Positions 52,000 to 54,411 of a DNA stretch of 64,000 bases are shown here, piece by piece. The translations under genes were made by a program, and so were the position numbers. Position 1 is the stretch's first letter. Each line of letters begins with the position of its first letter. Under the pieces are notes generated by a model. That model had not been told where the DNA came from. It did no database searches and worked only from the letters and a program-made list of their open reading frames with translations. Origin of the DNA: a virus; IMG/VR virus record IMGVR_UViG_3300020463_002440, positions 1-64,000 of that record; one strand, written 5' to 3'.

Positions 52000-52187
52000 T
52001 ATCAGATTTTACACTTTTTAATGTTTCTATTATTAATCCATCCACAATGGAAAAAATTGACCAAGGTGAGATGAGATATAAACACGCAAAAGATTTTCTT
52101 AATAAAATGGATAAGAAAGGAATACCTGTAATTGTTGAAGCAATCAACGATTCTGATGTAGCAGATTTCATATTATCAAATAATTAA
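51996..52187 (+). CDS. Small hypothetical protein
   Basis: 63 aa (MISDFTLFNVSIINPSTMEK, then mixed alpha/beta). Overlaps the previous gene by 4 nt. Last gene before the large structured RNA. Confidence 0.55.
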   Translation: MISDFTLFNVSIINPSTMEKIDQGEMRYKHAKDFLNKMDKKGIPVIVEAINDSDVADFILSNN

Positions 52188-52206
52188 ACTTTTTTCATAA
52201 AAACTA

Positions 52207-52235
52207 TTGACATTCATTATGAACTATAGTATAAT
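52207..52235 (+). promoter_or_regulatory. Sigma-70-type promoter of the large structured RNA
   Basis: TTGACA 52207-52212, palindrome TTCATTATGAA in the spacer (17 nt), TATAAT 52230-52235. Predicted start about 52242. Confidence 0.85.
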
Positions 52236-52241
52236 AGACGT

Positions 52242-52922
52242 ATATTGAGGGAAACACCCCCGACTCGCAAGAGAAATGGTAAAATGCAATTACCAAAGCG
52301 ACGGAGATATCTCGAGGTCATAAAAGTTGTTCTTATCAAACAAAGGCCGAGAAAAAACAGGTGGACAAACCCGACTGGCAGCTGAAGCTGTTGAGTATAT
52401 CCAATCGTAACAGATATATTCGGACAGAGTAATGAGAGGGCCAATACTGGAAAGTATGTAATTATACGGGTACAGAACAAATCAATAGAGACTGAGGCGA
52501 GCCCGAGTTTGAAGAAACGCTCGAAACTAAAGTGGATTAAATTCCCGCAGTCCGAAAAGAGATAGGTTTAGCTTGCAAGCTAAACGACACAAGACGGCAG
52601 TCTAGGATCTTCTCTTTTTTACTTGAGAGTATGCTTAAGTGTTACCCAAGAAACTAGAGTTAACGAAGTACGATGTAAGTCCGAGGCCAGCCAGTCGACC
52701 TAATAGTTTTACTTGGAATGCTACGATTAACAATTCAGCATTATTTAACGAATTACGTTAACACAGCATTCCATTTTCTAGGTGGTTAGAAACCGCAGCT
52801 TAGTCGGCTGTTCCTTTAGAAAGGATCCAATAACAAATGACGATTGTGAGGCATGAGTTCTACACCGAGGCGGTTCTTGTCATACCTTTGATGGGTGTAT
52901 ATGGAAGAACCGCCGTTTTTTT
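52242..52922 (+). ncRNA. ~680-nt highly structured non-coding RNA upstream of hemC
   Basis: There is no plus-strand reading frame here and base composition is visibly richer in G+C than the neighbours. Helices seen: CTC-GCAA-GAG (52264-52273); TGGTAA/TTACCA (52277/52290); GGCAGC-TGAA-GCTGTT (52377-52392); AAAAGAGA/TCTCTTTT (52555/52611) enclosing the palindrome 52566-52585; GGAATGCT/AGCATTCC (52715/52765) with TTAAC/GTTAA and AATTC/GAATT inside; and a terminator at 52869-52922. The T-run at 52615-52620 may give a shorter ~380-nt form. It is not RNase P, tmRNA or a group I intron by any core motif I could find. Size and setting recall giant phage RNAs such as GOLLD and ROOL, without identifiable similarity. 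Confidence 0.75.
52869..52922 (+). terminator. Terminator of the structured RNA, just before hemC
   Basis: GGCGGTTCTT (52869-52878) pairs with AAGAACCGCC (52905-52914), then a T7 run. The loop holds ATACC/GGGTGT sequences that could pair with TACACC at 52861. hemC starts 14 nt later. Confidence 0.85.
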
Positions 52923-52936
52923 ATTAAGGACATAAT

Positions 52937-53779
52937 ATGATTCCATTAATTGGAACAAGAAAATCAAAACTTGCTCTTGCATATACTAACAAAGCAATAA
53001 AACGTTTAGATATTTCACTTACAACTGTCCTCATTGATTCAGAAGCAGATCTTAAACCTGATGTTACTATTGAAGAATTAGGTAATAAAGGAGTCTTTTC
53101 TAAAGAGGCTGAAACCTCTCTAATTAATAATCATATTGATATTGCATGTCATGCATACAAAGATCTTACAAGAGATAACGATCACCTTCTAGAAATATCC
53201 TGCGTACTACCAAGAGCTGACTTTAGAGATTGTTTAATTGGTAATAATATAAATCCAAGAACAATAGGTACAAGCTCTCCAAGAAGATTATTTCAATTAC
53301 AAGAATTATATCCAAATGCACAGATAGTTCCTATTCGTGGTAACATAGATACTCGAATACAAAAACAAGAGAACGGTGAATATGATGCAATTGTTTTAGC
53401 AAAAGCTGGTCTTGATTCTTTAAACCTTACTCACAAAGCAAGTAGAATATTTGGAACTGCAGATATGTTGCCTGCACCAGGACAAGGAGTTATTGCTTTA
53501 CAGACAAGAATACCAAATAATGATAGAGATCGCGATATTACAGGAATGTTATGGGCAAGAAATCATATTGACACTTGGTATACAGTAATGGCTGAAAAAG
53601 CAATGCTTAAAGAAATAAATGGAGACTGCCATACTCCAATTGGTGTATTATCATATGTTGAAAATAATACATTACACATGGTTGCGAAACACTTTGAAAC
53701 AGATAAGCTAAGTTTGAATAAAGGTCCTATTGAAGAATATAATGAAATAGGTTCGCAGCTCGGCAAATCTTTAATATGA
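52937..53779 (+). CDS. hemC: Hydroxymethylbilane synthase (porphobilinogen deaminase)
   Basis: 280 aa, a little shorter than bacterial HemC (~310). Catalytic Asp in CHAYKDLTR, ADFRDCLIGN, GTSSPRRLFQLQ, IVPIRGNIDTRIQK, LPAPGQGVIALQ, and the dipyrromethane-cofactor Cys in INGDCHTPIG. It joins four porphobilinogens into hydroxymethylbilane. With HemA and HemE it gives three of the first five haem steps (HemB and HemD not seen). SD AAGGA; no promoter of its own between the RNA terminator and the ATG. Confidence 0.93.
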   Translation: MIPLIGTRKSKLALAYTNKAIKRLDISLTTVLIDSEADLKPDVTIEELGNKGVFSKEAETSLINNHIDIACHAYKDLTRDNDHLLEISCVLPRADFRDCLIGNNINPRTIGTSSPRRLFQLQELYPNAQIVPIRGNIDTRIQKQENGEYDAIVLAKAGLDSLNLTHKASRIFGTADMLPAPGQGVIALQTRIPNNDRDRDITGMLWARNHIDTWYTVMAEKAMLKEINGDCHTPIGVLSYVENNTLHMVAKHFETDKLSLNKGPIEEYNEIGSQLGKSLI

Positions 53780-54017: not shown

Positions 54018-54046
54018 TTGACATTTGCTCTCATATAGAGTATAAT
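54018..54046 (+). promoter_or_regulatory. Sigma-70-type promoter
   Basis: TTGACA 54018-54023, 17 nt, TATAAT 54041-54046, followed by the GGAAAAAGGAATTAAA leader also seen at 34.8 kb. Confidence 0.85.
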
Positions 54047-54075: not shown

Positions 54076-54411
54076 ATGAATAGAGTAGATATGATAGAGA
54101 TTTGGGATTCAGTTGAATTTAAAATTAACGGAGTTCATCACAGAGGTTTCATCAAAGAATTAAGAAAAGATGGAATGTCAGTTAAAGTCATTGAACAAGA
54201 TTTCGTAAACAGTTACCATGATGAAAGCTTTGATGCTTTTATGTTAGATATTAATGAATCTGAATTTGATTCTTTTAAATTAGAAATATGGTCTGATGGT
54301 AGAGGTGGAGACAATTCTGCTATTGGAGTTCAAGGCTGTCATGAACCATGGAAATTGGTTTGGATGCCTGCCGCTGAATTTGATGAATGGAAAAACAGGA
54401 GGGCTGCATAA
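54076..54411 (+). CDS. Hypothetical early protein
   Basis: 111 aa from ATG 54076 (AAGGA 8 nt upstream; the longer TTG frame starts at the promoter -10). Begins MNRVDMIEIWDSVEFKINGV; no domain recognised. TAATG-coupled to the next gene. Confidence 0.65.
   Translation: MNRVDMIEIWDSVEFKINGVHHRGFIKELRKDGMSVKVIEQDFVNSYHDESFDAFMLDINESEFDSFKLEIWSDGRGGDNSAIGVQGCHEPWKLVWMPAAEFDEWKNRRAA

Follow-up and report, generated by a model that had tools for sequence, protein, structure and literature searches.

A modular family of structured non-coding RNAs without an Rfam match, predicted upstream of hemC in a T4-like marine phage

The locus and its signals

We describe here a non-coding locus in a 64,000-nt stretch of viral DNA (the window), which comprises positions 1 to 64,000 of a 156-kb IMG/VR record. 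The interval of ~750 nt at 52188-52936 is bounded by a 63-aa ORF that ends at 52187 and by hemC, and plus-strand ORFs that reach 50 aa are absent from it, in agreement with a sequence-only reading that had marked out ~700 nt free of plus-strand ORFs. The hemC gene (52937-53779) is preceded by an AAGGA Shine-Dalgarno sequence at 52926, and its identity as a porphobilinogen deaminase gene is given by Pfam matches to PF01379 (E 4e-56) and PF03900. The gp23/22/21 region of this phage is nearest to those of Methylophilales phage Melnitz and Pelagibacter phage Mosig, with 69-71% identity in aligned pieces, and both of these phages are filed as Kyanoviridae.

On the plus strand, to which all features below belong, a sigma-70 promoter (TTGACA-17-TATAAT, 52207-52235) matches the consensus at 12 of 12 positions, with +1 expected near 52242. 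An intrinsic terminator lies at 52869-52922, in which 52869-52878 pairs with 52905-52914 to form a 10-bp stem around a conserved 26-nt loop, and a T-run reaches to 52922. These two signals predict a non-coding transcript of ~681 nt (52242-52922), and the G+C content is 39-44% in the RNA stretch compared with ~30-33% in its surroundings. The perfect sigma-70 promoter implies that the RNA gene would be transcribed early, by the host RNA polymerase. The T-run and hemC are separated by 14 nt, there is no promoter of hemC's own between the terminator and the gene, and hemC is probably reached by read-through from the RNA. We also note a second perfect TTGACA-17-TATAAT at 54018-54046, ahead of an ORF at 54076 and with the same AT-rich stretch upstream, which probably belongs to the same promoter class.

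Homologues and a covarying core

Homologues were sought in IMG/VR with exact patterns and then with nhmmer, and the contigs handled in this way carry L-numbers. The core of the RNA was recovered in ~60 viral contigs of uncultured phages, from which 38 distinct 5’ domains were extracted. Wherever the upstream sequence is present, a sigma-70-like promoter is in register, situated directly 5’ of AUAUUGAGGGARACACCCC, or of GGGAAAGGCCCC in L118 and its relatives. The homologues have no ORF in common, and within their first 430 nt the ATG ORFs of the plus strand attain a maximum length of between 7 and 77 aa.

The window has no match to an Rfam family at the gathering score or at E up to 5, and nine homologue loci (E up to 1) and seven D3 loci (described below) returned only tRNAs and chance matches. 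Group I and group II introns, RNase P RNA, and tmRNA were without an Rfam covariance match in the window and the nine homologue loci, and ARAGORN and Rfam together found neither a tmRNA nor a riboswitch in the window, as had been anticipated for RNase P, tmRNA, and group I introns from the letters alone. Among cellular genomes, 117 pattern matches yielded no homologue by profile. When isolated phages were queried by blastn with the large RNA in three versions and with three stretches that contain D3, and plasmids with one query, only promoter-like or chance AT-rich similarity emerged. The RNA is absent from isolated phages, as is this hemC as far as searched; HemC matches in the phage collection (AGRM01000003, AFYI01000004, CAKLQH020000023, and others), annotated as porphobilinogen deaminase and 26-34% identical, were set aside as apparently misfiled bacterial sequence. 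By these comparisons, the RNA is a previously unlisted family without an Rfam match.

Folding of the single sequence gives -177.6 kcal/mol compared with -164.0 kcal/mol by chance, and as this difference is modest (z -1.9), the claim of structure rests on the homologues. A fold that is forced to contain the core helices derived by comparison lies ~16 kcal/mol above the minimum reached without constraints, so these helices would escape single-sequence folding. Most of the short local helices proposed previously are real, whereas it is only by comparison that the long-range pairings emerge.

In the predicted fold of the ~681-nt product, the first bases of the RNA close a 5’ domain and helix H9 closes a central domain; a rod hairpin, a 3’ module that we call D3, and the terminator follow. 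The 5’ domain (52242-52487; covariation was scored over 27 distinct rows) is closed by H0 (52243-52248 with 52482-52487), in which the extreme 5’ end UAUUGA pairs with UCAAUA, or UGUUGA with UCAACA in L027. It further contains H1 (52249-52259), H2 (52260-52304), which encloses H3, H6 (52370-52373 with 52467-52470), H7, and H8 (52445-52456), the last with a GGAA loop of the GNRA type. The central domain (52490-52696) contains H10 (52506-52528) and hairpins near 52566-52585 and 52593-52602. Its closing long-range helix H9 pairs GACUG at 52490-52494 with CAGUC at 52692-52696 and is 100% paired at its five pairs. Homologues fall into three groups that have a common fold with entire helices swapped, and H9 is GACUG/CAGUC in group A, which includes the window, GGUGG/CCACC in group B, GUGGG with CCCAC or CCUAC in group C, and GCGGG/CCCGC in L118.

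Over the 27 distinct rows and 34 pairs of the core, 98.7% of cells are paired and 17 pairs show two-sided changes, with a covariation score of 0.448 compared with 0.148 for shuffled controls (0/300). The arms of H7, H8, and H10 were chosen by best pairing, which inflates the counts for these helices, but the five pattern-anchored helices by themselves still score 0.309 against 0.091. A MAFFT alignment of the H6-H8 block set two H6 variants one column apart and was for that reason left out of the counts. Strong covariation extends over the 5’, central, and 3’ domains as well as the stem of the terminator, and by this comparative evidence, with compensatory changes far in excess of both shuffled and slid controls, the RNA is a structured non-coding RNA. 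A large phage RNA that carries a promoter and a terminator of its own, as proposed earlier, is supported by the homologues, by their covariation, and by the lack of an Rfam match for the window or its homologues.

Exchangeable 3’ modules

The order of modules is core (415-490 nt), rod hairpin, D3 (91 nt), and terminator, and the rod and the terminator lie where the sequence-only reading had placed them. The rod (52715-52772) has a conserved apical part (AUUAACAAUUC...GAAUUACGUUAA) and a variable outer stem, occurs in many homologues, and its outer stem is paired above shuffles (0/500). A scan with the rod tip matched contigs of the large-RNA and D3 family, plus L303. In L008, L042, and L073 a different hairpin (GGCUGGUUGACU...AGUCAACCAGCC) takes the rod's place directly 3’ of the core; its loop retains the rod-like CACUAUUUAAC (CACUAAGAAAC in L008), and it doubles as a terminator ahead of hemC.

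D3 (52780-52870) is a four-helix module with a conserved CAAAUGACGAUUGUGA. Among 19 distinct sequences, its four helices have 93.4% of cells paired and two-sided changes in 20 of 28 pairs, with a covariation score of 0.672; shuffled controls give 0.183 (0/500), and partners slid out of register do not exceed 0.166. A covariance model of D3 finds a single match in the 156-kb record of the window and one in each D3-bearing record. The P2 and P4 loops are complementary in all sequences (GUCA or GUCG with UGAC), although these columns scarcely vary and the loop-loop contact, GUCG:UGAC in the window, is therefore a proposal. We considered D3 as a tRNA-like element, with a loop-loop contact as in D and T loops, and rejected this since it has neither a T-loop motif nor a CCA end. 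The terminator stem also covaries, with 98.8% paired (0/500 shuffles), and there is almost no variation in the loop that it closes (CAUACCUUUGAU.GG..UA.AUGG).

The modules are found in a variety of combinations. The core is followed by its own terminator and then an independently promoted gene in L029, L021, L025, and L018; core and rod occur together in L011, L012, L044, L051, and L055; and the complete series of core, rod, D3, and terminator is present in the window, L037, L038, L047, L062, L063, L067, and others. L132 has rod and D3 without the core, and L050 has the 5’ domain, rod, and D3 without the central domain. D3 and terminator stand alone with their own promoter in L150 and L166, with a predicted RNA of ~145 nt. 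D3 is also located directly 3’ of a PNKP-type phosphatase gene in L121, L126, L143, and L145 (the assignment, by PF25109, was made on L145, E 4e-25), behind a 5’-nucleotidase-like gene in L127 and L128, and at the end of another non-coding region of ~1 kb in L114, L133, L137, and L165. The 156-kb record of the window itself has no PNKP-type phosphatase. From these sequence arrangements, the family is modular, with interchangeable parts that include the core alone, D3 alone, and core-rod-D3 fusions.

The mobility of D3 suggests a model in which D3 and the terminator are chiefly a 3’-protection or 3’-processing signal shared by phage transcripts, the large RNA being one carrier among others. D3 ends three types of transcript and is always then followed by a terminator hairpin with the conserved loop. 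A tRNA-Glu lies close behind D3 in many phages, and of the standalone copies, tRNA-Glu(UUC) follows D3 in L143 (2078-2296) and precedes it in L150 (4011-4265). However, this model leaves the large and highly conserved core unexplained, and the core also exists without D3, such that we regard it as a quite unlikely account of the RNA as a whole.

Genomic placement and possible roles

The family occupies at least four genomic places. At the slot near gp23, hemC lies behind the RNA in the window, L008, L012, L039, L042, L050, L052, and L073, and tRNA-Glu(UUC) lies behind it in L037, L038, L062, L063, L067, and others; in L047 the RNA is followed by tRNA-Glu and then by hemC. Other members adjoin a helicase-like, major capsid, or thermonuclease-like gene, as judged by ORF order with labels from sequence reading rather than family searches. 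L001-L005 have hemC without the RNA, and there hemC overlaps its upstream ORF (ATGA). The hemC and tRNA-Glu genes at a single slot both touch tetrapyrrole synthesis, which is possibly a coincidence.

This placement bears directly on whether the RNA acts in cis on hemC, as a leader that responds to a ligand or a protein and governs how far transcription passes the terminator, in the manner of a haem-pathway riboswitch or attenuator. The immediate proximity of hemC to the T-run without an intervening promoter fits such a leader, as does the presence of hemC behind the RNA in several divergent phages; in other phages the RNA is followed by the gene for tRNA-Glu, a tRNA that, once charged, supplies one route of tetrapyrrole synthesis. 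The RNA is, however, not constantly linked to a gene it would regulate: the five phages L001-L005 have hemC without it, and it precedes tRNA-Glu or unrelated genes elsewhere, although several of the records with the RNA and without hemC are fragments. At other loci a strong terminator and independently promoted genes lie behind the RNA, D3 and the terminator occur behind or apart from unrelated genes, and ~680 nt with four domains far exceed what known riboswitches need. A porphobilinogen deaminase gene has been described in pelagimyophage genomes from metagenomes, in which no riboswitch was found (PMC7029224). We consider the leader unlikely, and the earlier suggestion of a long haem-pathway leader with ligand-controlled antitermination is not supported by these loci. 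The accompanying suggestion that hemC expression may depend on read-through is plausible for this phage, but control of it by a ligand is unsupported. Read-through into hemC is plausibly a side effect of position. Any leader function must have been acquired later, in only some of the lineages, and the RNA may have a secondary regulatory role where the Shine-Dalgarno sequence directly follows the T-run and hemC adjoins the RNA.

The occurrence of the RNA in several places, with its own promoter, its own terminators, and free modules, marks it as an autonomous non-coding RNA gene of a T4-like marine phage that is not a leader of hemC, a reading that we favor with good confidence. Expression of hemC would then arise by partial read-through, and hemC would not be the RNA's target. 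The nearest kind among known RNAs is that of the ornate phage RNAs GOLLD and ROOL, whose cages consist of RNA alone (PMC12286853), yet no homology to either was found. GOLLD is likewise a large phage-encoded RNA without an ORF, frequently near tRNA genes and found in marine samples, with a conserved 3’ region and a more variable 5’ region (PMC12286853). In contrast, it gives no covariance match to the RNA described here, is often longer than 800 nt compared with 415-690 nt, and differs from an RNA whose 3’ module is 91 nt long and is also found alone. The tRNA proximity is seen here as tRNA-Glu directly behind the RNA in many homologues, whereas the window's own 156-kb record has no tRNA. ROOL shares the phage-borne ornate character, a similar length (659 nt in the solved example), a location often near tRNA genes, and the lack of a known protein partner (PMC12286853), but it too gives no covariance match, and it differs in host range and from the module exchange and standalone parts seen here. 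By analogy of size, phage location, frequent tRNA neighbors, lack of an ORF, and conserved 3’ end, we propose an architectural RNA that most likely works in trans, a role also inferred for the GOLLD and ROOL class, with D3 perhaps providing a stable, recognizable 3’ end or cap.

A large, structured, phage-borne RNA that is present or absent at one site among related phages could also serve a protein system as its guide or template, in the manner of an OMEGA- or HEARO-type nuclease RNA, a retron, a Ro-associated Y RNA, or an intron, and HEARO and OMEGA RNAs share both a mobile context and variable presence at a site. We consider this very improbable. No linked ORF travels with the RNA across homologues, Rfam gives no intron or HEARO match, and, unlike HEARO and OMEGA RNAs, the RNA has its own promoter and terminator. 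The 156-kb record has no TnpB-type zinc-finger domain, reverse transcriptase, or TROVE protein; a search of the record for IscB/IsrB-type (RRXRR) proteins was uninformative, as its control matched nowhere. Melnitz, a related marine T4-like phage with gp23/22/21 ~69% identical in aligned pieces, also carries an RNA gene, a two-piece tmRNA with a glutamine riboswitch (PMC9004378), but neither was detected in the window by ARAGORN and Rfam.

More tentatively, the RNA may belong to a broader new superfamily, in which modular phage RNAs that are transcribed early have a mobile D3 in common although they fall into three or more transcript classes that are otherwise unrelated. Its large members might assemble into particles made of RNA alone, or might counter defence systems or modulate translation while abundant ocean bacteria are being infected. 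Few classes of giant phage RNA are known, and the best studied of them unexpectedly build cages of RNA. The RNA described here would add an independent family with a deep and well-covarying alignment, found in T4-like phages whose relatives infect bacteria that are abundant in the ocean. Because its modules also occur separately, each can be tested by itself, and D3 is small enough for structure determination, or for direct tests of 3’-end protection or protein binding.

The other D3-terminated region of ~1 kb (L137:1440-2620, plus strand; also L133, L165, and L114) is situated behind the PNKP-type phosphatase gene and has a promoter. A T-arm resembling that of a tRNA (GGTCGCAGGTTCGAATCCTGCC) lies near its 5’ part, and D3 forms its 3’ end. 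It contains no ARAGORN gene, has only weak Rfam matches (YrlA and a tmRNA T-arm), and is possibly a second new large phage RNA.
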